This document shows, one piece after another, positions 28,101 to 64,000 of a DNA stretch of 64,000 nucleotides (positions are counted from its first letter, which is position 1; every line of letters starts with the position of its first letter). The notes beneath the pieces were generated by a model, which ran no database searches, had not been told where the DNA came from, and saw nothing but the letters and a program-made list of their open reading frames with translations. Source of the stretch: Saccharomycodes ludwigii (Eukaryota; Ascomycota; Saccharomycetes; Saccharomycodales; Saccharomycodaceae); contig NC_060201.1 in NCBI RefSeq assembly GCF_020623625.1, positions 2,284,664 to 2,348,663 on the forward strand. The letters run 5' to 3'. A program made the translations under genes and the position numbers.

Positions 28101-30064
28101 GTGGTGATACTATTGAAAGTTCTACTTATATTACCTATAGCAGTACCGAAAGTTATACACCATCAAGTTCCATTGTTACTTCTAGTATAGTTGGTACAAA
28201 TTCATCACCATTAGTTTTGAGTAGCTCTACCTATTGCTCATCCTGCAATGCAGAAAGTTATGCACCATCAAGTTCAATTATAACTATTAGTACGGATGTT
28301 ACAAGTTCATTACCATTAATCACGAGTAGTTTGACCTACAGCTCATTTAGCAGTGATACTATTGAAAGTTCTACTTATGTTTCCTATAGTGGTAGTGAAG
28401 GTTATACATCAATGAGTTTGGTTACAAGCAGTGTAGATGCAACAAGTTCACCATAAAGTTTTAATAATTCCAGCTATATTTCCTATAGCAATACAGAAAG
28501 TTATATACCACCAAGTTCCATTGTTACTTCTAGTATGGTTAGTACAAATTCATCACCATTAGTTTTGAGTAGTTCTACCTATTGCTCATCCTGCAATACA
28601 GAGAGTTATACACCATCAAGTTCAATTATAACTATTAGTACAGATGTTACAAGTTCATTACCATTAATCACGAGTAGTTCGGCCTACAGTTCATCTAGTA
28701 GTGATACTATTGAGAGTTCTGCTTATATTTCCTATAACAGTACTGAAGGTTATACATCATCTAGTTTGATTATGAGTAGTACATACGCTACAAGTTCATT
28801 ACCATTAAGCTTTAGTAATTCTAGCAATATTTCCTATAGCAGTACGGAAGGTTATACATCATCTAGTTTGATTACAAGCAGTGCAGTTACTACAATTTCG
28901 TCACCATCAAGTTTGAGTAGTTCAACATACTGTTCATCTTGTAACAACGAAAGTTATACATCATCTAGTTTGATTATGAGTAGTACATACGCTACAAGTT
29001 CATTACCATTAAGCTTTAGTAATTTTAGCCATATTTCCTATAGCAGTACTGAAGGCTATACATCATCTAGTTTGATTACAAGCAGTGCAGTTACTACAAT
29101 TTCGTCACCATCAAGTTTGAGTAGTTCAACATACTGTTCATCTTGTAACACAGAAAGTTATACATCATCTAGTTTAATCATGAGCAGTACAAATGTTACG
29201 AAATCATTACCATTAAGTTTGACTAGTTCCACTTATAACACATTCACTAATAGTAAAGATGTACCAAGATCAAGTTCTGTTTTGAGTGGTAATATCGTTA
29301 CAAATTCATTGTCATTTACACCTAATAGTTTTACTTTCAGTGCTTCTTCTGCAATTCCAATCATTACGATTACAGTTACAAGTATTAGCACCGTTACAGA
29401 TTCTGCAACGACATATATTACTTATGTTACATATACTAGTACAGAATCTACTTTCGGTAAAAATAATGGGAATGATTATACTACTACTACTACTATTACA
29501 CCAAGTTTGTCAAGTAATAACATTCTTTCGAGTACTGATAGTGTTACGACAACAACTTTTAAAAATGGTGCAGTTACTTCTACTATTATTAATTCCAAGA
29601 ACACAAATGTCGAGACTAATAATACTAAGAGCAATGAGGGCACTACAATTATTGATAATGGCACTCCTGTGTACTCTGTTACAACCGAAACAAATAGCAT
29701 GGACTTTACCACTAAGACTACGCCTGCTACTATCGAAACGACTACAGATACTTTGAGCACTACTTCAAGTACCAGAGAATATACCGCTACCATTACTACC
29801 GATAATAACAACAATATTAGTGAAACCCAACACACATCCAAAACATCCGATACTGATAACATTGTTACAACGTTAACTACTGCTAATACCGATGCCACTA
29901 CTATCACACCAATTATTTCTACGCAACCAGTTACGACATCATCCAGTAGTGCAACTATTAACAGTAGTGCTTATTCATTTTCCATTTATACAGCTGGTGT
30001 TCGCAAAAACACACCATCTATATCATTAAGTGTTTTCTTTGTGATTTTTATTTCATTTTTTTAA
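25178..30064 (+). pseudogene. FLO1-type PA14 flocculin 1, interrupted by one in-frame TAA
   Basis: One reading frame of 1628 codons plus the final stop, broken only by TAA at 28454-28456. Order: hydrophobic signal peptide (MMRLIYERGVLILLLCLL), PA14 lectin domain (about residues 35-280) with the Ca-binding VDDSA motif and CC pair as in Flo1/Flo5 (LGNVDDSAGLLFG, FTCCEQ), nine 45-residue flocculin repeats with core WTG..TSTYSTSIFTTTG and YVETPDVDAS, a tenth with WGG, a long Ser/Thr-rich stalk with its own looser repeats, and a hydrophobic C-terminal tail (SLSVFFVIFISFF) like a GPI signal. Comparison with sister stalk repeats shows that TTA (Leu) became TAA by one substitution. Without readthrough the product ends at residue 1092 with no anchor and would be secreted. 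Flocculins bind mannose on neighbouring cells and cause clumping. Confidence 0.9.
26040..27370 (+). repeat. Flocculin repeat array of gene 1 (10 units of about 135 bp)
   Basis: Nine units with core WTG and one terminal unit with WGG, each 45 codons. Some neighbouring units are almost identical at the DNA level (for example the two with STTVITGWTG near 26700-26900), indicating recent unequal exchange. The array is much shorter than that of gene 2. Confidence 0.9.
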
Positions 30065-39384: not shown

Positions 39385-40299
39385 AAAACATTTTTGCAAA
39401 TAAATATATTTTATTTTTATATAGTTAAAAAAAATTCCGAGCCTTTATAATTAGCAAAAATGATGTTCATTATTTACAAGCGAGCGATTTTATTGTTAAC
39501 ATTCTTTATATATCTATTTGCAAAAATAATTGATGCTCAAGAGTTACCCGATACAAATGATGCTTGTAGTCCAATTACAGATCCAATCAATGGATTTAAA
39601 GTGAGATGGTATAATTATACCTATAATGATGGTACCACCTTTAGTAACTTAGATTACATGGCATATGGATATTATCAAAACTCTGCACCATATCATTTTC
39701 AAAATGGTGTAAGTACTGTTACCTTTGCAACAGGATATCCATGTTATTACAATGAAAGTGATTTGGCCGATTATTTTATTTGTAAAACAGCTCATTATTT
39801 TTTAAATCCTGGAGTAAGCTATCCATGGACTTGTCCAGATGCAGATGCTCCATATAATAGCTACATTTGTTTCAATAGCGATATAGATGTTTCAACAATG
39901 CCATTAGTGTACGGTTATAATACGACTTTTACTAATTTCACAATGTAACTTACCGGTTATTTTTTAGCTCCAGAAACCGGTGATTATACTTTTACGCTAG
40001 GAAATGTTGATGATTCTGCTGGTGTTTTATTTGGGGATAATGCCTTTGGATGTTGTGAACAAAATGATATTACTGCTACTTCAACAGATTTTTTTCTTAA
40101 TGCTATAAGAGGTTGGTATTCAGGAGTAGATGGTGACAGTTCAAGTGAAAAGACGCTATTTGGTGGATTATATTATCCACTAAGAATTGTATTTACCAAT
40201 GCCTTAGGAAAAGCAAATATGAATTTCACAGTAACTTTACCGGATGGAACTGTAATGAGTGATTTTACAAATTACGTATTTACATTCGATGGAAAAGAA

Positions 40300-43200
40300 T
40301 CTTATTGCCCAGCCTATGAACACAATACTACTACCTACACGCCATGGACTGGTGCATTTACTTCTACCATTGGTACTAGTGTAACTACCAGTATTGGCTC
40401 AGACGGTATTCCAACTACATCTACCATTTACACCGTTGAAACTCCAGAAGTTGATGCTGTTACAACCACCTACATACCATGGACTGGTTTTGTTACATCT
40501 ACTATTGGTAATAGCATTATAACTACTACCGGTTCCGATGGTATTTCAACCACCTTTACCATTTATACAGTACAAACTCCAATGATTCCAGCTGATAGTA
40601 CTACATATGAAGCTTGGACTGGATCTGTTACTACTACTGTTGGTACTTCAATTTTTACTACTACTGGTACTGATGGAGTACCAACCACATCTACCATCTA
40701 CACAGTGCAAACGCCTACCAACAATGGTGTTACTACCACTAATGTACCATGGACTGGGTCTGTTACTTCCACTGTGGGTACTAGTGTATTTACCACTACC
40801 GGTACTGATGGATTGCCAACAACATCTACCATCTACACAGTGCAAACGCCTACCAATCGTAGGGATTCGACTACTAATGTACCATGGACTGGGTTTGTTA
40901 CTTCCACTGTAGGTACTAGTGTATTTACCACTACCGGTACTGATGATTTGCCAACCACATCTACCATCTACACAGTGCAAACGCCTACCAACAATGGTGT
41001 TACTACCACTAATGTACCATGGACTGGGTTTGTTACTTCCACTGTAGGTACCAGTGTATTTACCACTACCGGTACTGATGGATTGCCAACAACATCTACC
41101 ATCTACACAGCGCAAACGCCTATCAATCGTAGGGATTCGACTACTAATGTACCATGGACTGGGTTTGTTACTTCCACTGTGGGTACTAGTGTATTTACCG
41201 CTATCGGTACTGATGGATTGCCAACAACATCTACCATCTACACAGTGCAAACGCCTATCAATCGTAGGGATTCGACTACTAATGTACCATGGACTGGGTT
41301 TGTTACTTCCACTGTAGGTACTAGTGTATTTACCACTACCGGTACTGATGATTTGCCAACCACATCTACCATCTACACAGTGCAAACGCCTACCAACAAT
41401 GGTGTTACTACCACTAATGTACCATGGACTGGGTTTGTTACTTCCACTGTAGGTACCAGTGTATTTACCACTACCGGTACTGATGGATTGCCAACAACAT
41501 CTACCATCTACACAGTGCAAACGCCTATCAATCGTAGGGATTCGACTACTAATGTACCATGGACTGGGTTTGTTACTTCCACTGTAGGTACTAGTGTATT
41601 TACCACTACCGGTACTGATGGATTGCCAACAACATCTACCATCTACACAGTGCAAACGCCTACCAACAATGGTGTTACTACCACTAATGTACCATGGACT
41701 GGGTTTGTTACTTCCACTGTAGGTACCAGTGTATTTACCACTACCGGTACTGATGGATTGCCAACAACATCTACCATCTACACAGTGCAAACGCCTATCA
41801 ATCGTAGGGATTCGACTACTAATGTACCATGGACTGGGTTTGTTACTTCCACTGTAGGTACTAGTGTATTTACCACTACCGGTACTGATGATTTGCCAAC
41901 CACATCTACCATCTACACAGTGCAAACGCCTACCAACAATGGTGTTACTACCACTAATGTACCATGGACTGGGTTTGTTACTTCCACTGTAGGTACCAGT
42001 GTATTTACCACTACCGGTACTGATGGATTGCCAACAACATCTACCATCTACACAGTGCAAACGCCTACCAATCGTAGGGATTCGACTACTAATGTACCAT
42101 GGACTGGGTTTGTTACTTCCACTGTAGGTACTAGTGTATTTACCACTACCGGTACTGATGGATTGCCAACCACATCTACCATCTACACAGTGCAAACACC
42201 TACCAACAATGGTGTTACTACCACTAATGTACCATGGACTGGGTCTGTTACTTCCACTGTAGGTACTAGTGTATTTACCACTACCGGTACTGATGGATTG
42301 CCAACAACATCTACCATCTACACAGTGCAAACGCCTACCAACAATGGTGTTACTACCACTAATGTACCATGGACTGGGTTTGTTACTTCCACTGTAGGTA
42401 CCAGTGTATTTACCACTACCGGTACTGATGGATTGCCAACAACATCTACCATCTACACAGTGCAAACGCCTACCAATCGTAGGGATTCGACTACTAATGT
42501 ACCATGGACTGGGTTTGTTACTTCCACTGTGGGTACTAGTGTATTTACCACTACCGGTACTGATGGATTGCCAACAACATCTACCATCTACACAGTGCAA
42601 ACGCCTACCAACAATGGTGTTACTACCACTAATGTACCATGGACTGGGTTTGTTACTTCCACTGTAGGTACCAGTGTATTTACCACTACCGGTACTGATG
42701 GATTGCCAACAACATCTACCATCTACACAGTGCAAACGCCTATCAATCGTAGGGATTCGACTACTAATGTACCATGGACTGGGTTTGTTACTTCCACTGT
42801 AGGTACTAGTGTATTTACCACTACCGGTACTGATGGATTGCCAACCACATCTACCATCTACACAGTGCAAACACCTACCAACAATGGTGTTACTACCACT
42901 AATGTACCATGGACTGGGTCTGTTACTTCCACTGTAGGTACCAGTGTATTTACCACTACCGGTACTGATGGATTGCCAACAACATCTACCATCTACACAG
43001 TGCAAACGCCTATCAATCGTAGGGATTCGACTACTAATGTACCATGGACTGGGTTTGTTACTTCCACTGTGGGTACCAGTGTATTTACCACTACCGGTAC
43101 TGATGGATTGCCAACAACATCTACCATCTACACAGTGCAAACGCCTATCAATCGTAGGGATTCGACTACTAATGTACCATGGACTGGGTTTGTTACTTCC

Positions 43201-44755
43201 ACTGTGGGTACTAGTGTATTTACCACTACCGGTACTGATGGATTGCCAACAACATCTACCATCTACACAGTGCAAACACCTACCAACAATGGTGTTACTA
43301 CCACTAATGTACCATGGACTGGGTCTGTTACTTCCACTGTAGGTACCAGTGTATTTACCACTACCGGTACTGATGGATTGCCAACAACATCTACCATCTA
43401 CACAGTGCAAACGCCTACCAACAATGGTGTTACTACCACTAATGTACCATGGACTGGGTTTGTTACTTCCACTGTAGGTACCAGTGTATTTACCACTACC
43501 GGTACTGATGGATTGCCAACAACATCTACCATCTACACAGTGCAAACGCCTATCAATCGTAGGGATTCGACTACTAATGTACCATGGACTGGGTTTGTTA
43601 CTTCCACTGTAGGTACTAGTGTATTTACCACTACCGGTACTGATGGATTGCCAACAACATCTACCATCTACACAGTGCAAACGCCTACCAACAATGGTGT
43701 TACTACCACTAATGTACCATGGACTGGGTTTGTTACTTCCACTGTAGGTACCAGTGTATTTACCACTACCGGTACTGATGATTTGCCAACCACATCTACC
43801 ATCTACACAGTGCAAACGCCTACCAATCGTAGGGATTCGACTACTAATGTACCATGGACTGGGTTTGTTACTTCCACTGTAGGTACTAGTGTATTTACCA
43901 CTACCGGTACTGATGGATTGCCAACAACATCTACCATCTACACAGTGCAAACGCCTACCAACAATGGTGTTACTACCACTAATGTACCATGGACTGGGTT
44001 TGTTACTTCCACTGTAGGTACCAGTGTATTTACCACTACCGGTACTGATGGATTGCCAACAACATCTACCATCTACACAGTGCAAACGCCTATCAATCGT
44101 AGGGATTCGACTACTAATGTACCATGGACTGGGTTTGTTACTTCCACTGTGGGTACCAGTGTATTTACCACTACCGGTACTGATGGATTGCCAACAACAT
44201 CTACCATCTACACAGTGCAAACGCCTATCAATCGTAGGGATTCGACTACTAATGTACCATGGACTGGGTTTGTTACTTCCACTGTGGGTACTAGTGTATT
44301 TACCACTACCGGTACTGATGGATTGCCAACAACATCTACCATCTACACAGTGCAAACGCCTACCAACAATGGTGTTACTACCACTAATGTACCATGGACT
44401 GGGTTTGTTACTTCCACTGTAGGTACCAGTGTATTTACCACTACCGGTACTGATGGATTACCAACAACATCTACCATCTACACAGTGCAAACGCCCACCA
44501 ACAATGGTGTTATTACCACTAATGTACCATGGACTGGGTCTGTTACATCTGCTATTGGTACTAGTGTTATCACTACTACTGGTACTGATGGTAGACCATC
44601 CACTTCCACCATATACACAGTTGAAACACCAGCCAATTATGACATTAGTACTACATTCACATCTTGGGGTGGTGCTTACACTTCGACGTATTCCACTAAC
44701 ATTTTCACTGTTACTGGCTCTAATGGATTGTCTACCACTTCCACTATCATTTACG
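40300..44755 (+). repeat. 135-bp flocculin repeat array, 33 units, of gene 2
   Basis: The W-G core recurs with an exact 135-base period: the first TGG is at 40345, the last regular one at 44530 (31 periods later, so 32 units), and a degenerate WGG unit at 44665. Most inner units differ by only a few bases. Two linker types occur, TNNGVTTTNVPWTG and (I/T)NRRDSTTNVPWTG, often alternating, so much of the array also has a 270-base higher-order period. Confidence 0.95.
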
Positions 44756-45129
44756 TTGAAACACCAGGATTTGGTTATTTCAACACTACCAGTTCTAAAT
44801 CTTTACCATTGACTTGTATTCCAGATACCACTAATACTGGGCCATTTACAAACCCAAGCAAAGGTAGCTCCACTTCAAAAACCTTTACTAATCCAGCTCC
44901 AGGTACTACCTCTACTTCCGAAACTGTTTCTCCAGTTAATCCAACTACTGAGACACCTGGATTGCCTTCTAGTGTTACAAGAACTACTGTGATTGTTACA
45001 TCTGGCAGAACTATAACCTCGACTATTGTCACATGCGATGCTACTACCACCACTATTCCAAACAACAACAACAACAATAATGGTGGTTCTAACAATTCCG
45101 GTTCCGAAGTTTATTCTGTTAGTTCTGAG

Positions 45130-46010
45130 ACTTCCAATACACCAGTTACTGTTACTAAGACTAGTGTGTACACTACATCTGGTAGTACCATTACTGCTAC
45201 TATCACCTCCACTATTGTTCCAAATAACAACAACAACAACGGTGGATCTGGTAGTTCTGAAACTGGTAATACACCAGTCACTGTTACCAAGACTAGTGTA
45301 TTCACTACTTCGGGTAGTACCATTACTGCCACTATCACCTCTACTATTGTTCCAAATGACAACAACAACAACGGTGGATCTGGTAGTTCTGAGACTGCTA
45401 ATACACCAGTTACTGTTACTAAGACTAGTGTGTACACTACATCAGGTAGTACCATTACTGCCACTATCACCTCTACTATTGTTCCAAATAACAACAACAA
45501 CAATGGTGGATCTGGTAGTTCCGAAACTGCTAATACACCAGTTACTGTTACTAAGACTAGTGTGTACACTACATCTGGTAGCACCATTACTGCTACTATC
45601 ACCTCTACTATTGTTCCAAATAACAACAACAACAATGGTGGATCTGGTAGTTCCGAAACTGGTAATACACCAGTTACTGTTACCAAGACTAGTGTGTACA
45701 CTACATCTGGTAGCACAATTACTGCTACTATCACCTCTACTATTGTTCCAAACAACAATAATAACAATGGTGGATCTGGTAGTTCTGAGGCTGCTAATAC
45801 ACCAGTTACTGTTACTAAGACTAGTGTGTTTACCACATCTGGTAGTATCATTACTGCTACTATCACCTCTACTATCGTTCCAAACAACAACAACAACAAC
45901 AACGGTGGATCTGGTAGTTCCGAAACTGCTAATACACCAGTTACTGTTACCAAGACTAGCGTGTACACTACATCAGGTAGTACCATCACATCTGTTATTA
46001 CATCTACTAT
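45130..46010 (+). repeat. Second repeat block of flocculin 2 (VTVTKTSV..TSGSTITA units)
   Basis: Seven units of about 40-45 codons with core TPVTVTKTSVYTTSGSTITA, STIVPNN and GGSGSSE. Length differs between units mainly by the number of AAC/AAT asparagine codons. The block lies between the 135-bp array and the C-terminal tail. Confidence 0.9.
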
Positions 46011-46362
46011 TGTTCCAAACAATAATAATGAAAATGGATCAGGTTCTTCAGGCAATGCTAGTGAATATGTTGAGACTATTTCTTCTGGTTCTGTTTATAC
46101 CACTGTTACCAAGAGTGGCAATGGCAACTCTGGTAATTCCATCAATGTTGTTACCAAGACCACATCTGGTAGCAAAGTTATTACTACTACTATTCAATCA
46201 GAAACTGTTTCTAGTACAACTGGTATTGAAGTTCAAAGTATTCAATCTCAACCAGGATCTAGTGGATTAATTTCTATTTACCAAGCTGGTGCTGTTTCAA
46301 ACAGAATATCGACTTTCAAGATGTCCTTTACTTTATTTGTTTTATTTTTCAATTTATTTTAA

Positions 46363-51180: not shown

Positions 51181-51216
51181 GATTATCACTTTTTCTGATG
51201 TTTTTTTTAGGGCTTT

Positions 51217-51322
51217 ATTTTTTGGATTATATGTTTTGGATTATATGTTTTGGATTATATGTTTTGGATTATATTTTTTGGATTATATGTTTTGGATTTT
51301 ATTTTTTGGATTTTATTTTTTT
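51217..51322. repeat. 14-bp minisatellite TGTTTTGGATTATA
   Basis: About seven and a half head-to-tail copies with small variants (TTTTTTGGATTTTA at the right end). The block is bounded on both sides by TTAGGGCTTT; a third TTAGGGCTT lies near 51423. Confidence 0.85.
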
Positions 51323-52655: not shown

Positions 52656-55600
52656 TCAACGATCAAACAATTCCATAAACTTTTCAATATTCTTTTTATC
52701 GGGGTTGAACTTGGTCAAAACATCAGACTCGTTGTTTTTTGATTCAACAAACACAAATCGGAATTTTAATTTTTCTTTTTCTTGTCTCATTCTATACGCT
52801 CTTATTCCATGGAACTTGTCTCGAAACTTTGAGACATTATACCTAGAACAAAGTAGTATAGCACTTTTGTTATCACATTTTACAATAATTTTTTCTTTCT
52901 TGTTTATCCTTCTGGTACCTGTCAACCAATTCTTTATTGTCACAATACCTTTGACCATACTAAATATTTCAGCTTCGGTTGAACTGATGCAACTTATAGT
53001 TGTCACTCCAGTCTTGGCTCCAACGATCAAGTTGTTCCAGTAAATTAAGTAACCATACTGACTTTTATAGTCTTCAGCATTGCTATGACTAGCATCTGAT
53101 ACTAATTTCAATTCACCATTGATAATATTTTCGTATTTCCACATTAATTTGTAATTGCTTGTATTATACACATAACTTAATAACTTCTTAGTTGTTTTCA
53201 AAATCTCGTCTGATGGATATAGCTGGTATCGTGATAGGAAGTTTACCGTGAACATAATATCGTATCTGTACTTCATAGCAACATAGTTTAATAAGCCTAT
53301 TGCTCTTTGCATAAATTTGTTTTTGGTTGCATAGTCTGTGATATTATCGATAATTTTGTCAGGAATCTTCAAATCTTTTACTATTGGTAATTCATTAACA
53401 CTGCTGTCAATATCAGCTACTAAGTTGCTGATCTTGCCCTGCAAATGCCCCATACACATTGACAAATGTGTACCAATCTTGTAATCTACTTGAATACCCA
53501 GAATATCATATTCTTCGCTACTACCATCGTTTATAACTTTTATTTCATAAAATTTGTTTAAGAATACTAAAACTTCCTTAAACATCGTATCATCGTTGGT
53601 TGTTATGATCATGTCATCAACAAACAAACCGATGATTATCATCTTGCTGTTCTCCTTTTTGATAAATATAGAAGACCAGTACTTTAGTAATTTAAAACCG
53701 TTGTCATTTAATTTTTTACATATCTCAACGTTCCATAAGTGACCGCTTTGTTTCAAGCCATATAAACTTTTCTTTAACTTCAAAACAGTATTTTTCTTTC
53801 TGTAAATACTTGGTGTGACAACATAGATATCTTCATCCAGTTTAGCATTCAAGTATGCTGCTTTGATATCTAGTTGGTATATCTTCAACTTATTGACAAA
53901 CGCTATATTCAAAATTAACATTAATCCATCATGTGATAGATTGGACGAACTCAAATCCCTATTAAATGTGGATTCGTCTTGCTCATCACCTCTTGCCACA
54001 ATCCGGCATTTATATTCACCGCTACGTTTCACATTGAACAAAATTAGTAATGGTACAATCTGTTTTTTATCAACAGTATCTACAGTTATCGTAGCATTCT
54101 TATCATAGGTGCCACTGTCTTCTAGGTTTTTCAATTCTTTTCGATACGCACTAATGTATTTATTTTTTATTTCTTTATTGGTGAGACCATATATCTCGTG
54201 CAAGTACAATGTGTCTCCAGTTGAATGTTTAACATCTGGAGTCACTTTAACACTTTTAACAGCACGGATAGCAACAACTTGTCTCAACATAACACGCTTT
54301 CTCTTATTAAATTTATTTGGGTGATCACTAATGTACTTAATGACCTCTTCCTCAGTCATTTTTCTTATCTTACCATCATCATTTATCTCCCAAGTATTGA
54401 TATTCACTTTGGCTGATTCTTCATCGGTATCATGCCCCATTTGATCATCACTTATGTCACTATCATCTTCTCGATCTCTTTTAGTGGCAGACCATTTGTC
54501 AGATAGGACTATACCTTCTGAGTTAGAATCAGAATTCTCATATTCTGGATCTTTTGCGTCATCAACGCTAGTTTCATTATCAGGATTTGTATCTTCTTGA
54601 TACTCTGAATCATTCACATCTTCAACACTAAATTCACTTTCAGAATCTGTACTAGATTCTTCTTCTGTACCACTTACAACATCAGTGCCAAACTTATTAT
54701 CAGAATTCACATTTTCCTCATTCTCTGTATTATTTCCAACATCAATGATAATTTCTGGTTCAGAATTTTCGTCACATTGACTATCATCAATTTTTTCTAC
54801 ACTATCATTGACAGTGGGAATTGGATTTATTGTTTCATTTGCAGTTACCTCATCATTATTATCCCTTTCATTAATGATAGGTACATATTCTTTTTTACTT
54901 AACTCTTCCTCAATTTGGTCATCATTTTCACTTTCCAACTCTGGAATAACTTCATTATTCTCTAATGATTCATCATTGTTTGCTAAATCTTCGATGAACC
55001 CGTCTATTGCAGTTTCTCTGCTTTGGTAATCGGTAAATGAATCGTATGCAATTTTAAAGCTTGAACTATCAATGACTCTTCTTAAGCTCTTAGCCCAGAC
55101 CTTGTATCCATACGAAGAGGTAGATGGTGATAAAATATAACCATCAATACCACGAGCACTTAGCTTATCATCTTCCTTTGAATGTAAAATGACATGTGTA
55201 CCAAATGGTAACAACTTAGCAATATCTAACTTGTCTACACCCAATAATTGTCGAGGTGACAATCCATGAGCATTGGACGCTGCGATAATACCATTTCTAA
55301 CATGACAACTATAACTAACCGCAAAAAACCACAATGACCTTGGTATGTTATCATTCAACATCAATGTCCTTGCATCATTCAACAGAGTGTAGTTCAATCT
55401 CTCAGCTACTCCATTAGCTTTAGAATCACCTTTGGTAGTAAATATTTGACGAATACCAAATTCTTGAAGATAATTTCTTACATCTTCATTTCTATATTCA
55501 TTCCCTTGATCAGAATGAATTACCTTGACAGTCTTTCCTAAATTCTTCTCAACATAAGGAATAAATTCTTGTAACACGTTCATAATAGCTTCAGCTGATT

Positions 55601-57347
55601 TGGACCTAAGTGGATAAACAAATCTAAACTTCGACTTCTCGTCAATAAATGTAATAAAACTGTTAGGATATCTAGGATTAATGTCTGGTACTGGACCAAA
55701 CAAATCAGAATGGAAATATTCTCCAGCATCATAGTGATCTTGATGACTGGCTCTGGATCCAATATAATGTTTCTTATACGTAGATTTGCCCTTCATACAG
55801 GAATCGCACTTGAAATCGTCAATACCAGTCCAATTAATATCATCATACTTGACACCAACTATAGAACCAATTTTTATACTTCTTTGTAAATCTTTCACAT
55901 TAATATGACCACACAACACATGGATGTGATATAAGTCAATCAATTTCTTGTTGCTTACATTCAATACATTCAATTTCTCAGGATAAACAATATACAATCC
56001 TGGGATATAAATCGAATCATCTTTCTCTACAACTTGACCTACCACATCTTTGGTATTAATATCATAGATACAGTTGTCTAATTCATTAACAACCAATCCA
56101 GCATTTTTTAAACTTGACCTACCAATCACCATTTGCTTGGTATCAACGGTTCCCAATGCCTCCAACTTGAACTCTTTGCCTCTAGATTTCAATATTAATA
56201 CACCAACATATGGCACATTAATTTTATTACCATTGAAATCTTCACAGAAGTGTTCAAAATTCTGCTTTGGATCATGTAACCATTCATTGGGAACAATTGT
56301 GGTCTCTGCACCAGTATCATACATAACATCTTTTATTTCATACTGATCGGTTTTTAAAACTTTCTTAACCAATCTAAGCCTAAGCGTACTCGACGGCGCA
56401 GTGTTTTCTCTCTCATTAACTAACTTAACTTCTTTAACTTTTTCTTCATTTTCTTTTTCTTTTTCCTTTTCTTTCAACTCAGGACAATCGGGTCTGATAT
56501 GTCCTTCTTGTTGACAATTATAGCAAACGGCAGGTTTATTGCTATTAACATTTTTAACAGAACCTTCATTGGATCCCTTATTGTAGGTACCATTTTTGTT
56601 ATCATAATTTTCCTTATTACGATAAACTTGTCTGGCAAACGGATCCTTATCAAATCTGCAGGCCATTGTAATTTCCTTTTCCTCTTCATCATAGAAGTTT
56701 GAGATAACTTCATAGATATCCTCAAAGTCAACATCTAACTTACCACGGTTTAGAAGCAAAATAATATCCTTAACCTTGTGATAACCCTTCTTCATGGAAG
56801 CAATAATTCTTCTCTTCATCTCGTATTCATTCATTTCACAATGGTGCTTCTTAGTTTTGGCTATCAGATTTCTTACATTGTTGATATACGTTGCCGCGCT
56901 AACACTACCATCATAATACAAGTTGGACCATTCACGAGTAATGTCCTTTATCTCTGATACATTTGTTTTGTCATGATTACCAGAGTCAATATCAATCAGA
57001 ATTTGCAAACCATCGCTTGAATCAAATCCCTCTGGAAAAAATTTTTTAAAATACAAAAAAAATTCACCTGCCATTTTTAACGTCTCTGGACCAAGGACGG
57101 ATTCAGCATCATTTTCAAGCAAACACCCTAAACCTTCACGTTTCATTCTAAATATAAACATTTTCATACCAGGAACGAAGTTACTCTTGTCCATACCCTT
57201 ATTATCAAAAGAGAGTATCAAATTATTGAACTTGTCGAGTACATCGTCCTTAGAAAGCATAACTGAATTCCCCCCAGTGTGAGTGCCATGTTCAGATGAA
57301 ACCTGATCTGAATTATTATTATTGTTGGAATTGTAGGGATGGGACAT
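52656..57347 (-). CDS. Ty1/copia Gag-Pol polyprotein, single frame
   Basis: 1563 residues without frameshift or stop. Gag ends in a CCHC zinc knuckle (CYNCQQEGHIRPDC, from residue 275) followed by a Lys/Glu run. Protease: DTGAETT with catalytic Asp344. Integrase: HHCC finger (HVLCGH ... CDSCMKGK) and D,D,E core (HSDLFGP, IHSDQGNEY, KANGVAERL). A long acidic linker follows (Asp/Glu/Asn/Ser-rich). RT: YQLDIKAAYLNA, KKSLYGLKQSGHLW and the catalytic FVDDM (about residues 1242-1246). RNase H: SSTEAEIF and KCDNKSA. All catalytic residues that I can check are present. The start is in the 5' LTR and the frame runs through the LTR end and primer-binding region. Most yeast Ty1-type elements separate Gag and Pol by +1 frameshifting; here they are fused, as in Ty5. 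Confidence 0.95.
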   Translation of the reverse strand: MSHPYNSNNNNNSDQVSSEHGTHTGGNSVMLSKDDVLDKFNNLILSFDNKGMDKSNFVPGMKMFIFRMKREGLGCLLENDAESVLGPETLKMAGEFFLYFKKFFPEGFDSSDGLQILIDIDSGNHDKTNVSEIKDITREWSNLYYDGSVSAATYINNVRNLIAKTKKHHCEMNEYEMKRRIIASMKKGYHKVKDIILLLNRGKLDVDFEDIYEVISNFYDEEEKEITMACRFDKDPFARQVYRNKENYDNKNGTYNKGSNEGSVKNVNSNKPAVCYNCQQEGHIRPDCPELKEKEKEKENEEKVKEVKLVNERENTAPSSTLRLRLVKKVLKTDQYEIKDVMYDTGAETTIVPNEWLHDPKQNFEHFCEDFNGNKINVPYVGVLILKSRGKEFKLEALGTVDTKQMVIGRSSLKNAGLVVNELDNCIYDINTKDVVGQVVEKDDSIYIPGLYIVYPEKLNVLNVSNKKLIDLYHIHVLCGHINVKDLQRSIKIGSIVGVKYDDINWTGIDDFKCDSCMKGKSTYKKHYIGSRASHQDHYDAGEYFHSDLFGPVPDINPRYPNSFITFIDEKSKFRFVYPLRSKSAEAIMNVLQEFIPYVEKNLGKTVKVIHSDQGNEYRNEDVRNYLQEFGIRQIFTTKGDSKANGVAERLNYTLLNDARTLMLNDNIPRSLWFFAVSYSCHVRNGIIAASNAHGLSPRQLLGVDKLDIAKLLPFGTHVILHSKEDDKLSARGIDGYILSPSTSSYGYKVWAKSLRRVIDSSSFKIAYDSFTDYQSRETAIDGFIEDLANNDESLENNEVIPELESENDDQIEEELSKKEYVPIINERDNNDEVTANETINPIPTVNDSVEKIDDSQCDENSEPEIIIDVGNNTENEENVNSDNKFGTDVVSGTEEESSTDSESEFSVEDVNDSEYQEDTNPDNETSVDDAKDPEYENSDSNSEGIVLSDKWSATKRDREDDSDISDDQMGHDTDEESAKVNINTWEINDDGKIRKMTEEEVIKYISDHPNKFNKRKRVMLRQVVAIRAVKSVKVTPDVKHSTGDTLYLHEIYGLTNKEIKNKYISAYRKELKNLEDSGTYDKNATITVDTVDKKQIVPLLILFNVKRSGEYKCRIVARGDEQDESTFNRDLSSSNLSHDGLMLILNIAFVNKLKIYQLDIKAAYLNAKLDEDIYVVTPSIYRKKNTVLKLKKSLYGLKQSGHLWNVEICKKLNDNGFKLLKYWSSIFIKKENSKMIIIGLFVDDMIITTNDDTMFKEVLVFLNKFYEIKVINDGSSEEYDILGIQVDYKIGTHLSMCMGHLQGKISNLVADIDSSVNELPIVKDLKIPDKIIDNITDYATKNKFMQRAIGLLNYVAMKYRYDIMFTVNFLSRYQLYPSDEILKTTKKLLSYVYNTSNYKLMWKYENIINGELKLVSDASHSNAEDYKSQYGYLIYWNNLIVGAKTGVTTISCISSTEAEIFSMVKGIVTIKNWLTGTRRINKKEKIIVKCDNKSAILLCSRYNVSKFRDKFHGIRAYRMRQEKEKLKFRFVFVESKNNESDVLTKFNPDKKNIEKFMELFDR

Positions 57348-57669
57348 TCTTTGTAGATTAATTGTGAAACTGTTATGTTGTAGTAAATGTATATACTTGA
57401 TTATAGTATTATTACTGAGTGTTCTCTTCTATTACTTATAATTATACAAAATATATAAGATGTATTTTATTTGTTCTATTTTCAATCTTCATTTTTTGTG
57501 TCCTTTATATATCATAAATTATATTTTCCAATTCGTTGTTCGCTCTATTTTTATTGTCACCTTAAATCCTGAATCGCGCCACCAAAATTTGACTGCGCCT
57601 CCTAAAATATGAAACATGTTTCAAACTTAATTGCTTAATTTAATTCCCTATTGGAATTTGGTTCCAACA
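57289..57669 (-). repeat. 5' LTR of complete Ty element
   Basis: 381 bases. It contains the likely promoter TATATAAAGGACAC (complement of 57498-57511), about 155 bases upstream of the Gag-Pol ATG, which itself lies inside this LTR at 57347, as the TYA start lies in the LTR of Ty1. Confidence 0.95.
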
Positions 57670-57794
57670 ATATCACTATATATTTTACCATCCTTTTCAA
57701 TGGTGATACGAGTGCCTTTACCGGCTATAGCTTGGGCAGGTTTTTCGTTAATTTTGCATTGGAAAACGTAGGACTTTTTATCAGTAGGAGTCAT
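57648..57794 (-). pseudogene. 5' coding fragment of an unidentified gene cut by the Ty element
   Basis: The minus strand reads 42 sensible codons from ATG at 57794 (MTPTDKKSYVFQCKINEKP..., then GKGTRITIEKDGKIY) up to the LTR border, then six codons of LTR and a TAG supplied by the LTR. The composition is that of a folded protein and GC content is higher than in the surroundings. I do not recognise it. Upstream, ATG at 57875 followed after 23 bases by GTAAGT (57852-57847) could be a tiny first exon, without a clear branch site. The remaining 3' part is not on the far side of the element. Confidence 0.5.
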
Positions 57795-59729
57795 TATTAT
57801 AAAACATGCTTTAAATTAATTACAAGAAAAAACATGTACTAGTGTTACTTACATCCCAATTGATGGTTTAGGCATTATTGGGAATAACTCTGTGTCTTAT
57901 AGTGTTTAGTTGCTATTTTATACATAATAATTAATTAAAAAAAAATAAAAAAAATAAAAAAAATAAAAAACAATTATGTAAATGGTTTATTGCTAAAGAT
58001 AAGATTTGTACTTAATTGTGATATATATTTTTTTTTATTTTATTTTTTTGCGCGTATAGAATTTAGGATAAAAAAAAGGAAAATAGAAATAAACGAGATG
58101 ACGAATATATCAGAATGTAACGCGTCGAGTCGCACATGATAAGAAATCGAGGCGTGTTTTGTCTCGGGCGAAGATTTAAAAAAAAAAAAAAAGGAAAAAA
58201 AAAAAATATAAACCAGAAATGAAAGCGAGTTGTCTTTTTTAACCACGTGATACATTTGATGTCAAAAAAAAAAAAAAAAAAAAAAAAAGCGAGCGCTTTA
58301 TATCAGTGTGAGTAATATTTTAATTGTACAAGGAGGTTGGATTGTAAATTGGATAAATAAATTGAACAAAAAAAAAAAAAGATAAATAAAAATAATTATA
58401 AAATTATATTACGACAGTTGTTACACATGTATGCACTAAATACAATCTATTTGGTAAAAAAATAAAAATAAATTATTTAATTAAAATTTATGTGAGTGAG
58501 TTATTGTTGGACACAGTGTATGATTATTTTTATTCAAGAACGTAACTTTTTTTTTTGGGCGAGTAGGATTTATTAAATTATTAATGGGGGTTATTTGTGT
58601 GTTAGAGCTGTAGCAGTGTTCCTTCTTCTTAGTTAGTTGTGTTTACCGCGCTGATCGGATTTGTTAAAAAAAAATAATATTTTTGTTTTTATTTCTCGTT
58701 TAGTAATTTATAGATTGGGAAAATAGGATCACGTGGATTATACAAAAAAAGAAATTTTGTTTCATTAAAAATTAATATTTACTTTTTGAAATTATTTATT
58801 AGGAGATACGCGCGATGGGATTAGATTGCTACTGCTGCACAATGAACATATAACAAGCAAACAAATACAATCAAGAAAATATACGACACAGTAATAAACG
58901 CGAAAAAAAATATTAATTGATCTCACAGAAAGCGACGCATTGAGAAGGCGTACAACTACCAAATAAAAAAAAAAAATTAAAAAAAAAGCGAGTTATTTAT
59001 ACGAGATTGGATTGGGCACCAAATATTTTCACGATGTAAAAGAAGCGGGTGGCAAATAAAGAAAAAGTTGTATTTCAATTAGCACATTACACAACTTGGT
59101 TACATTGATTATATTCATTATACAAAGTGTATAAGTAATAAGAAACAAGTAAAATACACAAAATAACAAGTAAATTAACATGAACCAAGAAGATTATTAG
59201 AGTTTACAACAATTTAAAATAAAAAAGACAGGGTTGATAGGTGGATTACATTATGGAGAGTGTTTGAAAGAAGAAGGAAAGATCACATTTTTTTTTATTT
59301 TTTTTTTTTAAATTTAGTCAGGATTTATTCGAACAAGTGAGTAAGTAAGTGATTGTAGTAGATATTTTGTTTTAGATTTTATTTTATTTGTTGTAATTAT
59401 TAGGATATTTGAGTTTTGAGTTGGGTTGTATTTGGTTGATCATGTTTAATGGTTTTCTGTGTGGGTGTGATTTCTTGAAAAAAATTTTTTTTCTTTTTTT
59501 CTTTTTTCTTTTTTTTTTTTTTTTTTTTTTTTTTTTCTGTTCGTCGATAATTTATGAAAATAATCATGTGACTGTTGTAGCTTAGTTCGTGTGTGTTCTT
59601 GCTTGATCACGTTGTGCTTTTTGCGCGGATCAGATTTGTTAAAAAAAAAATTTTTTTTTGTCGGATAACAAGTTATGTTTTTTTGCACGTGTAAGATTTG
59701 TTAAAAAAATAATTTTTTTTCTTTGGTTG
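57795..59729. other. AT-rich gene-free region right of the Ty element
   Basis: Contains many A/T tracts (58265-58288, 59504-59536) and three copies of a degenerate word, a G/C-rich start followed by GATTTGTTAAAAAAA (near 58652, 59623 and 59686). A CACGTG is present in CCACGTGAT (58243) and ATCACGTGG (58728). No gene is visible. Confidence 0.45.
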
Positions 59730-62700
59730 ATAAGTTATTAGAGTTGTTAAGAAATGATGAGTTGAGTTGTATGGATTATGCTTGGAATATAAATTTACAG
59801 GTTTATATTAGAGCTAGTGATTATCATTGATATGGCTGATTCTTTAATTAAAAGGCATATGATATGAGGAATGAATTGGATAATATACAAGATACAAGAA
59901 CACATTGGGTAAAAAAAACAAACAAAGAGACAAGGATATGATAATATTATTAGTGATAGTTATATTGAGAGGATAAGTGGAGTGTTTGACAAACAGGTTG
60001 GAGTTATAGTGGTGGATAATTGAGTTGAGTTGTGGAGAAAGTAGGATTTATTATTATTATTCTTTTTATTTTGTTAGGTGATGAGATATTTTGAAAGAGT
60101 TATTTTGATAGATGATATATTTAATAGATGCAATTATTATGAATGCTGGGATTAGAAATAGTATCAAAAGTATGATGGGATTAGAGTTAGGATTATAATT
60201 ATGATGGGAGTATTAGTATATTTATAGATATGAAGACGAGATTAGTATAATAGGATCAGAATTGAGATGGAATTACTAGAGTATTGGGATTATTTATTTA
60301 TTGAATTATAGATAGGGTGAGATTATTAGTTATATTATGATTACTACTGTACTTAGATTACAAGTGAGTTGTGAAGATTTATACATTTGAATTAGAAATG
60401 TATTTAGATGATAAGTGAGTTGGGATTGTGTATTGGGAGATGTGGGTATGTTAGGATTATGAATGAAATAAAAATTATATATTGGAGATATTTGGATTGA
60501 ATATGGTGAGGGATTCTAGATGGAGTATGATTAGAAGTATGTTTGAGTTATTGATATATTATTAGTATAATTGGAATTGGATTATAGATAGTGTGGAGTT
60601 ATTGGATATTGAGATTATAAAAACATATTGACCATGATACAAGGATTATTGATATATTTGGATAATTATTATACGGATAGTATAAGTATATTAGAATAGT
60701 TATTCTAATGAGATAATTATTAGATTTGGATTATGAATATATTTGAATAATTAGTATATTAATTTGACAAGTAGATTGGTATAACCATTGACATATATGG
60801 AATAGAAGTAGAGTTAGACAATAAAGATATTTGGAGGATAAGTATTGGATATGATTATAAATGTAGAATGAGACGACTAGGATATAGAGTATAAGAGTGG
60901 TGAGGCATGAGTATAAATGTTATTGAAATTATGAATATGAATATGAATATGAATGATTATTATAAATACAAATTGGGGATATGATTAGTAGAATGATTAT
61001 TAGAGTGAGACAATAAATATATATGGAGGATAATTATAGTGAGACATTCAGAGTATTATAGTTATGAGGATTTATTTTGATTATAAAGATGGATGGATGG
61101 TTATTATGACATTATTATAAATGTTATTAAGAATATGAATATTAATGAATCATTATTATACATATATATATGGAGGATTATTTGATTGAGGTTATCAATA
61201 TATATATATATATATGGTATGAGGATATGAATATAATAAATATATTATGATTATAAGATTAGTGGGATAATTATTATGAATGGATGGATGTTGATAAGTT
61301 ATTAGTTGATTTGAATCACTGATATATAGGGACTATGAGTGAATTGGGATAGTTATTTGATTGATAATAAAAGTATGTGGCTATAATTGATATATTTAGA
61401 TTATAAATATATATGGAATATAAATATAGCGAGAGGAATTATTATATGATGAGTGGTATAAGTATATATGAATTATAAATATAGTAGGAATAATTATTAT
61501 ATTATGAGTATAAGTATAATATGAATATAAATATAGTAGGAATAATTATTATATTATGTGTATAAGTATATTATAATTATGCGTTTATATTATAAATAAC
61601 CAAGTAATGTAAGTATATATGAATTATAAATATATATAGTATAGAAATATTATAATCAAAGTATAGTAAGATAATAAATATATGAGTTGTATAAGTATAT
61701 TATAATTATAATATATGTATTATTAGTATATGATAGTTATAAATATATAAGTAGTATATTATAATTATAAATATATAAGTAATATAAGTATATTATAGTT
61801 ATAAATATATAAGTGGTATAATTGAATAATTATTATATATAAGTAGTATAAGTATATTATAATCATAATATATAAGTAGTATAATTGAATAATTATTATA
61901 TATAAATTATAAATATAGTAGGGATAACTATTATAGATATAATATAAATAACTTTTTAAGATTATAAGTATAATAAGATATTTATAATATTGAAATTGGA
62001 AATATTATCGAGAGTATAAGTATGAATTAATAATTATGATGTATGGATAATAACAGTTGATTGATAAGTATTATATATAGGATATTATTACTATGATGAT
62101 ATTGGAAGAATATATATAGTATAAGAATATTATTGTGATTATGGATATTGGAAGAAGATTATAATTATAATGATATTATTATTATTGTTATAAATATATT
62201 ATGAATAATTATTATATAATGAGTATAAGAATACTATTGAGATTATAACTATAAGAGCAAGATATGTATTATATATGGATTAGAATTAGTATGTGAATTA
62301 TTATAAGGATATAGTTGTGAGTATAACTATAAGAGGAAGATGAGTATTATAATATTGTTGGTATTATTAATATGGAATTAAGATTATTAGTATAATGATA
62401 TTATTAATAGTATAGATATGAAATTAAGATTATTATTATAAAGATATTACTATTATTATGAACAAGAGAGTAAGATGATTATTATATATGGATTAGTATT
62501 ATAATAATAATATTGTTGGTATAATGAATATTGAAAGAAGATTATAATTATAAAAATATTATTATTATTATGAATATGAGGGTAAGATTATTATTGTATA
62601 TGGATTGCTATTATGAATGTGAGAGTAAGAGTATTATAAAGATATTGTTGGTATTATAACTAGAAGAAGGATATTATTATAATAATATTATTGGGGGTAA

Positions 62701-62898
62701 TTATGAATATGAGGGTAAGATTATTATTATATATGGATTGCTATTATAATTATAATGATAATATGGAATTAAGATGATAATTATATATGGATTACTGTCA
62801 TTATTAGAATATTATTGACATTATAAATATAAAAGTAAGATGATAATTATATATTGATTACTGTTATTATAAGAATATTGTTGGTGTTATGAATATAT
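59730..62898. repeat. C-depleted, G/A/T-only-like low-complexity tract
   Basis: Over more than 3 kb the + strand has very little C (I counted 14 C in 60001-60540, about 2.6 percent) while G is common. The sequence is built from recurring words such as GGATTA, TATTAT and AAGTATAT. Between about 62200 and 62900 a degenerate unit of roughly 100 bases can be followed (TATATGGATTACTGTTATTA, then GAATATTGTTGGTATTAT, then GAATATGAGGGTAAGAT). There is no coding potential on either strand. It looks like an old satellite or subtelomeric repeat. Confidence 0.7.
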
Positions 62899-63313
62899 TG
62901 GGAAAAATCGGGGTCACCGATTAAACCCGCCTTATTATTCAAGTTACTAGACATCTCAATATCTAATAGTTACTCTCTTATAATAATTGTTCGCTTCCCT
63001 CTTTATATAATTCCTAACTATATAATTATATAAAGAAATAATTTTAATTAATATATTCTTAATTCTTAGTTTTGTGTCCTTTATATACCTTGATTTCCCT
63101 GTTTCAATCAAGGTACACCAGTTCGGGTATATCGTCATAAATAGGGGCTTGAGTGTGTAATATGACGTCATCAAATTATTACCGATATAATTTCGGGATT
63201 ATTACCCCTAATTATTCGATAGTCCATATTAAACATTTATAATATTCCTTGCCGATAATCCATCGGGAAATAAACGGTTCAATTATTGGACAGACAATGT
63301 CAAATGTCCAACA
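62899..63313 (-). repeat. Solo-LTR-like insertion in the C-depleted tract
   Basis: About 415 bases of normal base balance within the C-poor tract. The minus strand begins TGTTGGACATTTGAC and ends CGATTTTTCCCA, i.e. TG...CA, and holds TATATAAAGGACACAAAA (complement near 63074-63090), the same core promoter as in the Ty LTRs at 52-58 kb, though the rest is different. It also includes TGACGTCA, a CRE-type palindrome (63162-63169). The five-base flanks (TATAT, ATAAT) do not match. Best read as a solo LTR of a second Ty1/copia family. Confidence 0.65.
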
Positions 63314-63716
63314 ATAATAATGTTGAGATTATAAATATATTAATTCATATATGTAGTATAATAATATTATTGTAGTTATTAATATGTTAGTTCATATATG
63401 TAGTACATATTTAATATAAAGATGATTAATGAGATTAGAAGTGGAAAATGATTGGGATTAGCAAGGTGGTATAAGTGGGAGTATATTTGGATGAATAATT
63501 GAGATGGAATTAGAAGATATTGGGGATAATTTGTACATTTTGATTATAATGGATGTGGGATAAATATATTGGTGAGAGTATAATGAGTTTGGATTAGAAA
63601 TATATGGACAGGGTTAAAAGAGATTGGGTGTGGGTATAAATATATATTGACGAGATTAGAAAGCATTTGTGGTAGAAATATATTGGGATAATTACGATAT
63701 GGTGAATATAAATATA
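63314..63716. repeat. Continuation of the C-depleted tract
   Basis: Same G/A/T-biased character as 59730-62898, which supports the view that the intervening LTR-like segment was inserted. No gene. Confidence 0.6.
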
Positions 63717-64000
63717 GTCGGATTAGCCATTACTCGGGTTATATGTATTCGGATAAATAATTGAGTCGGCTTACACGATACTCGGGTTATATACACTCGG
63801 ATAAATAAATTGGTCGGATGATGAAGTATTCGGGTTATAATATTCGGATAAATATTTGAGTCGGATGATGAAGTATTCGGGTTATAATATTCGGATAAAT
63901 AAATTGGTCGGATGATGAAGTATTCGGGTTATAATATTCGGATAAATAAATTGGTCGGATTATGAAGTATTCGGGTTATAATATTCGGATAAATAATTCA
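63717..64000. repeat. 47-48-bp tandem satellite, six units, running off the window
   Basis: Units start with GTCGGAT at 63717, 63765, 63813, 63860, 63907 and 63954. The last four are almost identical; the first two are diverged and one base longer. Each unit has three CGG triplets (GTCGGAT, ATTCGGGTTATA, ATTCGGATAAATA), two of them in direct order 11 bases apart. The right border is outside the window. Confidence 0.95.

Follow-up and report, generated by a model that had tools for sequence, protein, structure and literature searches.

A cytosine-poor 17-bp satellite lies in one orientation beside the telomere at 14 of 16 contig ends of Saccharomycodes ludwigii

Features and strand composition of the right end of contig C2

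The window, by which we mean the whole stretch of 64,000 nucleotides analyzed here, makes up the right end of contig C2 of Saccharomycodes ludwigii (positions 2284664-2348663); the contig ends at 2348663, which corresponds to position 64000 of the window. A DOA1-like protein is encoded on the other side of the window, at 138-1856; its closest named relative among the 120 matches listed of 1,333 comes from Hanseniaspora vineae (52% identity). The features of the right end are the following.

57666..57794, - strand: class-III aminotransferase gene, first codons only, cut off beside a copia-type element
57732..59210, + strand: subtelomeric flank common to the ends, with a mild skew (C, 9.9%; G, 16.4%), delimited by segmentation
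59211..59939, + strand: second flank, with a clear skew (A, 29.6%; C, 6.4%; G, 19.6%; T, 44.3%)
59940..62896, + strand: main part of a C-poor degenerate 17-bp satellite, its G-bearing strand running 5' to 3' toward the telomere
62897..63313, strand not given: 417-bp LTR-like insert of normal C content (composition break at 62909-63313)
63314..63718, + strand: distal part of the C-poor 17-bp satellite (C, 2.2%; G, 23.4%)
63627..63635, + strand: GGTGTGGGT, short word within the tract that resembles telomere sequence (weak)
63719..64000, + strand: tandem array of 47-bp units, each with TCGG three times, truncated where the contig ends

The borders of the insert (62897 and 63313) are exact to within a few bases. 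The word GGTGTGGGT had one match in the window with 0.25 expected, and 22 of 100 shuffles contained at least one. The aminotransferase remnant at 57666..57794, whose start codon was judged by eye, lies near the inner border of the block that is common to the ends, and homology to other ends restarts at 57665. At another end the aminotransferase is intact, as a 470-amino-acid open reading frame (ORF) in L032 (Pfam PF00202; E value, 5.7e-55).

How biased is the tract? By base count, the + strand of 60000-62900 is 2.17% C and 18.34% G, with 40.4% A and 39.1% T, in line with the original prediction of roughly 2 to 3% C and plentiful G. When all 3,987 bases of the interval 59730-63716 were counted, C amounted to 4.06% and G to 18.56%. 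The GC skew peaked at 0.78 in 1-kb windows, and 57 control windows taken from 1-57000 ranged from -0.281 to 0.242 (mean, -0.019; SD, 0.137), so the skew of the interval is not a normal one. A C-poor tract of more than 3 kb had been predicted; the skew is real, but the tract is interrupted at 62897-63313 by the 417-bp insert, which has 18.2% C (counted over 62909-63314). In the distal piece, 63315-63716, C is 2.24%.

Segmentation placed composition breaks at 57732, 59211, 61382, 62909, 63313, and 63719. These breaks show that the skew begins to the left of 59730, the border originally drawn; the satellite segment that we modeled begins at 59940. A and T are about equally common in the satellite; the absolute AT skew does not exceed 0.043 in any of the 19 bins closest to the array. 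T+G comes to ∼57% in 60000-62900, and the purine fraction is 0.55 to 0.59 in most tract bins and 0.65 in the 250 bp that adjoin the array. A coding role of the tract was rejected, as the absence of coding frames noted at the outset implied: no frame in 59730-63716 goes beyond a + strand ATG ORF of 30 codons and a - strand ATG ORF of 71 codons, the latter inside the insert. G-quadruplexes were also rejected, the + strand of 57001-64000 being without any motif.

The 17-bp repeat unit

The tract is a single, heavily degenerate 17-bp satellite with a unit of about NGGATTATAANTATATT, which in the outward direction has G but essentially no C. Autocorrelation in 59940-61000 revealed lags of 17, 34, 51, and 68 (z up to 9.1). 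In 61382-62908, lag 17 was accompanied by lags of 6, 46, 3, and 20, and the value for recurring 10-mers was 0.454 versus 0.162 in shuffles (z = 18.6; control z = 0.0). A degenerate unit of about 100 bases, as first proposed, gives way to one of 17 bp on the strength of the lags and of the profiles described below.

Cyclic period-17 profiles were trained separately on 59940-61000, on 61382-62908 (which takes in 12 bases of the insert), and on 63313-63718, with eight Markov resamples of each as the null. The first segment gave the unit GAGATTATAAATATATT with a log-likelihood ratio of 77.7 (null maximum, -7.4), and the second gave ATTATTATAATTATATT with a ratio of 126.5 (null maximum, -8.8). The distal segment gave AGGATTATAATGATATT, with a ratio of 18.2 that exceeds its null maximum of 11.7 by a modest margin. 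Seven other periods tried on 59940-61000 scored 15.7 or less. One observation speaks against the 17-bp unit, namely that in 61382-62908 a period of 23 scores on a par with 17 (128.4 versus 115.6, or 126.5 on separate training).

The three profiles recognized one another's segments with z values of 3.8 to 11.6. Cross-recognition between 59940-61000 and 61382-62908 reached z values of 11.6 and 9.1, and the distal profile recognized the two other segments at 9.2 and 10.1. No recognition by the three profiles was seen (z, -0.7 to 1.4) in the first flank (57732..59210; -0.4, 0.2, and -0.1), in the 729 bases of the second flank (59211..59939; -0.7, -0.2, and -0.2), or in a control stretch. Since profiles trained separately recognize each other and neither flank nor control, the whole tract can be described as a single satellite that is very degenerate; the expansion of a C-free satellite, one of the origins first suggested for it, is supported by this unit and by the cross-recognizing segments. 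Departures from the 17-bp unit numbered 476 to G and 63 to C, the count to G being inflated by register shifts and by old (ancestral) G variants.

The tract does not appear to descend from the neighboring 47-bp array. Their consensus words are similar, yet the best match of the array profile to the tract has an E value of 0.28, and we rejected this origin. The tract profiles in turn gave no clear recognition of the array (z, 0.7 to 1.6).

Distribution, orientation, and layout at the chromosome ends

The assembly of S. ludwigii NBRC 1722 comprises 12.5 Mb in 8 contigs, and passages of the genome paper give 7 chromosomes and 12.5 Mb (PMC8567612). These passages also describe subtelomeric repeats common to all scaffold ends and telomeric repeats at 9 of them (PMC8567612). 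A genome search with 60000-60700 as the query found the tract at 14 of the 16 contig ends. It lies on the + strand at right ends and on the - strand at left ends, so that the G-bearing strand runs 5' to 3' outward in 14 of 14 cases. The first flank (57732..59210) matches chromosome ends, too, and the array is present at the same 14 ends as the tract.

The only contig ends without the tract are C7 right and C8 right, which have ordinary composition and no similarity to the other 14. The last bases of C7 resemble, by eye, a flocculin-type coding repeat, and both ends look like internal breaks. With 7 chromosomes and 14 tract-bearing ends, C7 and C8 would be pieces of one chromosome. An Rfam search found no rRNA in the last 4 kb of either contig; the break is not rDNA within that distance.

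An end starts on its inner side with the shared flank, which is followed by the C-poor tract and then by the 47-bp TCGG array; a conserved junction leads from the array into the irregular TG telomere. The block is ∼6 kb long and lies just inside the array and telomere. Measured from the equivalent of 59940 to the array at 12 ends, inserts included, the tract is 3.1 to 5.3 kb long with 1.9 to 3.9% C; this range omits C2 left (10.1 kb, with a long insert of normal C) and C1 right (no array anchor). Identity to the window over 59730-61000 was 95.3 to 99.1% at the 11 other ends aligned; C1 right is less alike (83% over 60000-60700).

Our sample of the array consisted of 115 units from 13 ends with 40 to 54 bp between cuts, other lengths being dropped. 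The three TCGG in each of these units are almost invariant. Of the 14 ends, 11 show the conserved junction between array and telomere. The other three, namely C1 left, C8 left, and C2 right (the window), stop inside the array, and the telomere itself is missing from the assembled end of C2 right. Nine of the 14 ends continue for at least 40 bases past the junction word, with TG repeats at those inspected. The terminal repeat of a complete end is an irregular TG repeat and the tract lies inside it, so the tract is not a telomere repeat array. What was anticipated from the single window, a strand polarity like that of telomeres together with proximity to an end, is thus borne out by the 14 ends, their single orientation, and the TG repeats beyond the junction.

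Strong matches of tract and array were found near contig ends only. Thirteen weak interior matches of the tract make up ten stretches, all of them ATT/AAT-rich short repeats with ordinary C content around them; they are microsatellites and were rejected as interior copies, and as far as this search goes there are no tracts scattered in random orientation within the arms. The flank query also gives short interior matches in the genome. A word for the 17-bp unit, with one mismatch allowed, occurs at 148 places in the genome, and a reversed control pattern at 37. Of the first 100 of the 148 places, a hand count put 57 no more than 10 kb from an end, all of them pointing outward, and 43 in the interior. 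These data place the tract among distal subtelomeric elements: it occurs at many ends, lies just inside the telomere, is confined to the ends in its strong matches, and is alike from copy to copy.

The LTR-like insert at 62897..63313 has a distribution of its own. It is skipped, just before the distal part of the tract, in all 12 of the other ends aligned. Relatives occur elsewhere at C3 left, C2 left (two), C4 right, C4 left, and C1 right, with a partial one at C5 left. The C2 left element sits at another site, and we rejected the idea that it and the window insert are one insertion. No clear target duplication was seen at the window insert.

Origin of the strand asymmetry and comparison with known systems

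Is C being lost from the outward strand? The original prediction had offered long one-way mutation pressure as a cause. Under such pressure, C of the outward G-bearing strand would be deaminated more often, that strand being both the lagging-strand template of forks bound for the end and the one that resection leaves single stranded, and distance from the telomere would set the dose. Composition along the ends is consistent with such a dose. Pooled C/(C+G) falls gradually across flank and satellite, from ∼0.5 farther than 7 kb away to 0.05 beside the array, in a gradient that pools homologous ends (its bins are not independent), in which insertions raise C in some bins, and which uses 13 of the 14 ends (C1 right was omitted, its array anchor not being found). 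A purely local satellite does not explain this gradual fall. Nor does a satellite explain the second flank (59211-59939), which is not satellite DNA and is nevertheless skewed, with an excess of T. The ends of Encephalitozoon cuniculi, where an outward G+T excess is ascribed to replication in passages of the report (PMC4704409), offer a parallel.

We then compared the ends with one another, using 7, 11, 12, and 13 of the 14 ends in four regions, ungapped columns only, with partially matching ends dropped. The substitution counts are weak, since C is scarce (the tract has 54 C sites) and the polarity of changes was set by majority rule only. Over flank and tract together, C was lost no faster than G (all minor alleles, 16 of 183 sites versus 62 of 653; singletons, 3 of 183 versus 35 of 653), and the flanks by themselves were symmetric (C>T at 5 of 129 versus G>A at 12 of 268; T>C at 10 of 483 versus A>G at 11 of 553). 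In the tract, the counts of all minor alleles lean toward mutation pressure and against a satellite origin: C>T was the higher (7 of 54 versus 22 of 385 for G>A; P = 0.07) and T>C the rarer (6 of 589 versus 21 of 617 for A>G; P = 0.006). Tract singletons had no such imbalance (P = 1.0 and P = 0.34, respectively).

Other observations also argue against mutation pressure. A matches T in the satellite, which is what a C-free unit predicts and not what C-to-T decay predicts, and we rejected decay of ordinary DNA as the sole cause. In the array, which lies closer to the telomere, C is retained, and variants to C are about as frequent as variants to G (9 versus 8 allele types in the 115 units). At C1 right, an inner copy of the tract 6 to 9.5 kb from the end is equally C-poor (0.6 to 3.8% C), whereas the DNA nearer the end, at 4 to 6 kb, is not (11 to 15.6%); C-poverty travels with the sequence. 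Taken with the symmetric counts, the array variants and this inner copy suggest that, on balance, composition is a property of the sequence itself and not of its location. We consider one-way mutation pressure unlikely, and as a present cause it is not supported. The earlier interpretation as a whole is partly supported, in its polarity, end proximity, and satellite, and is not supported in the mutation pressure and the ∼100-base unit.

A repeat this degenerate should have admitted more C if it were simply a satellite, and the 63 departures to C against 476 to G weigh against that view. Does selection keep C off the outward strand? It could do so if a C-poor, G-bearing TERRA-like transcript toward the telomere needed to remain unfolded and to form DNA:RNA hybrids, or if a protein had to bind the exposed strand. 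Changes to C are fairly common among the ends (16, versus 26 to G) and rare in the long run; the departures from the unit are significantly more lopsided than the between-end changes (Fisher test, P = 3e-5), also when singletons are taken (6 to C versus 10 to G; P = 0.009). At a subgroup of human ends, positive GC skew past the TERRA start goes with such hybrids (PMC5286223), which fits. However, the long-run G count is the inflated one, the between-end and long-run sets share loci and are not independent, and the array, equally exposed, is not C-free. We rate selection a little below mutation pressure, as a rather doubtful account. A broader statement is that the ends carry kilobases held to a three-letter alphabet in the outward direction, in which C arises by mutation and is excluded in the long term, whether by selection or through some strand-specific process at the end; we put this forward as a tentative and improbable reading. 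On this reading, the repeat would have become almost unrecognizable through divergence and would nonetheless have taken up nearly no C.

The polarity of the tract also brings to mind a fossil telomere, in which 17-bp units made from an older telomerase template were left inside after a switch to TG repeats. An older template would account for a G strand free of C and for loose repeats of three letters. In keeping with this, the tract sits close to the telomere on its inner side and points outward, its short unit is degenerate and lacks C, and it contains the one weak telomere-like word. Yet the few G in each 17-bp unit would make a poor telomere, and we met no species with such a telomere in those parts of the telomere literature that came up in a general search, in passages that named neither Saccharomycodes nor Hanseniaspora. 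We regard this origin as very improbable.

We lean toward a C-free subtelomeric satellite that was spread by end-to-end recombination, in preference to one-way mutation pressure. The founding unit would have lacked C, and growth and diversification would have relied mainly on slippage and on duplicating and shuffling three-letter variants, processes that do not introduce C. Break-induced replication or gene conversion reaching the chromosome tip may then have carried copies of the block from one end to another. Copying as far as the tip would explain both the single orientation and the likeness of the copies, the two features from which alone we infer terminal recombination. The block may serve as a spare recombination substrate and as a spacer behind the telomere, by analogy with what has been proposed for TelKO of Naumovozyma castellii. 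The strictly kept TCGG array is a putative protein-binding border.

The tract provides 14 closely related and oriented reporters of strand fate beside the telomere. They could show whether replication, resection, or transcription at the ends leaves a strand-specific mark or whether the skew is inherited from C-free repeats. The mutation spectrum of S. ludwigii was measured, according to passages of the genome paper, with repeats left out (PMC8567612), and those passages make no mention of the skew. Among papers judged by title and the start of the abstract, we found none describing a cytosine-poor subtelomere or an end tract of Saccharomycodes. In our literature search on strand asymmetry, E. 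cuniculi was the nearest fungal case.

Strand-biased DNA inside telomeres is already known from TelKO, from the GC skew of E. cuniculi, and from the R element of Kluyveromyces lactis. The R element is distal subtelomeric, measures ∼1.5 to 2 kb, occurs at nearly all ends, and has a strong purine/pyrimidine strand bias. The present tract differs in that purines are ∼55 to 59% in most bins and its bias is a lack of C. Ends of Saccharomyces cerevisiae carry an X element, STR repeats, and an irregular TG telomere, and the S. ludwigii end resembles them in having an end element, then short repeats, and then an irregular TG telomere; the likeness is one of layout. The X element is far shorter and is not known to be C-free over kilobases. 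It contains Reb1 sites, TERRA starts there, and bound Reb1 limits TERRA (PMC9531808). By analogy, the TCGG array might play a Reb1-like, TERRA-limiting part.

TelKO sequences, in the passages that describe them, are 220 to 445 bp long with 75 to 82% T+G and occur as single copies with bits of telomere repeat; they are missing from 7 of 18 wild-type N. castellii ends and spread between ends in telomerase-negative strains (PMC12408736). On this description, the tract is like TelKO in being distal subtelomeric, just inside the telomere, and strand biased, with the G-bearing strand outward. It lacks the T+G-rich outward strand of TelKO (∼57% versus 75 to 82%), and it also differs in that it is 3 to 5 kb long, has A as common as T with only C lacking, is built of a 17-bp satellite, and occupies 14 of 16 ends. 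The E. cuniculi subtelomere has a long GC skew with an outward G+T excess in the region leading to rDNA, and it resembles the S. ludwigii end in the length of the skew and the outward excess of G; unlike here, no C-free satellite is described in the passages concerned (PMC4704409). What distinguishes the S. ludwigii tract is the unusual length and extremity of the bias, the lack of C alone with A about equal to T, the 17-bp satellite, and its presence at 14 of 16 ends.

Conserved positions of the 47-bp array

Across 115 units of the 47-bp array, taken from 13 contig ends, TTCGGATAAATA was nearly invariant (first T, 0.89; remaining positions, 0.99-1.0). The three TCGG motifs of each unit were likewise nearly invariant, with adjacent positions varying by up to half. 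This conservation pattern suggests a protein-binding constraint.

LTR-like copies at other contig ends

Among the end stretches compared, copies of the 417-bp LTR-like piece that interrupts the C-poor tract were found at the left end of contig C2 (stretches L030 and L044), the left ends of C3, C4 and C5, and the right ends of C1 and C4, with both orientations represented. The C2 left end has a long insert of normal C content with one copy at each of its borders. The tract sequences flanking this insert overlap by 5 bases (window 62567-62571), in what looks like a target duplication, and the insertion site is different from that of the 417-bp insert in the window.

Other genes and repeats in the window and at other contig ends

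The following features were annotated in the window and, for the last, in L032, a stretch from another contig end:

6808-8007 and 11758-12957: pair of nearly identical 399-aa genes, 5 kb apart
25178-28456: flocculin-type gene with Flocculin repeats (PF00624), GLEYA and PA14 domains
40219-46362: flocculin-type gene with Flocculin repeats (PF00624)
52656-57347, - strand: copia-type retrotransposon; 1563-aa open frame with RVT_2, integrase and zinc knuckle
L032 8067-9479: intact class-III aminotransferase gene, 470 aa, within the shared block

By eye, the 399-aa pair look like old yellow enzymes. Both flocculin-type genes are long, lie near the chromosome end and contain 135-bp coding repeats. 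A distinct frame (39460-39948) sits just upstream of the second, and its beginning resembles, by eye, the first. The right end of C7 (L051) terminates in what looks by eye like a flocculin-type coding repeat; the assembly is therefore probably broken there.

Between a flocculin gene and the copia-type element lies a C-free minisatellite (51216-51321, + strand; unit TATGTTTTGGATTA x 7.6), distinct from the subtelomeric tract. The element itself, flanked at either side by stretches similar by eye, lies immediately internal to the shared subtelomeric block, adjacent to a truncated aminotransferase gene. The left ends of C6 and C7 carry the same gene start as the L032 aminotransferase, which therefore belongs to a subtelomeric gene family.
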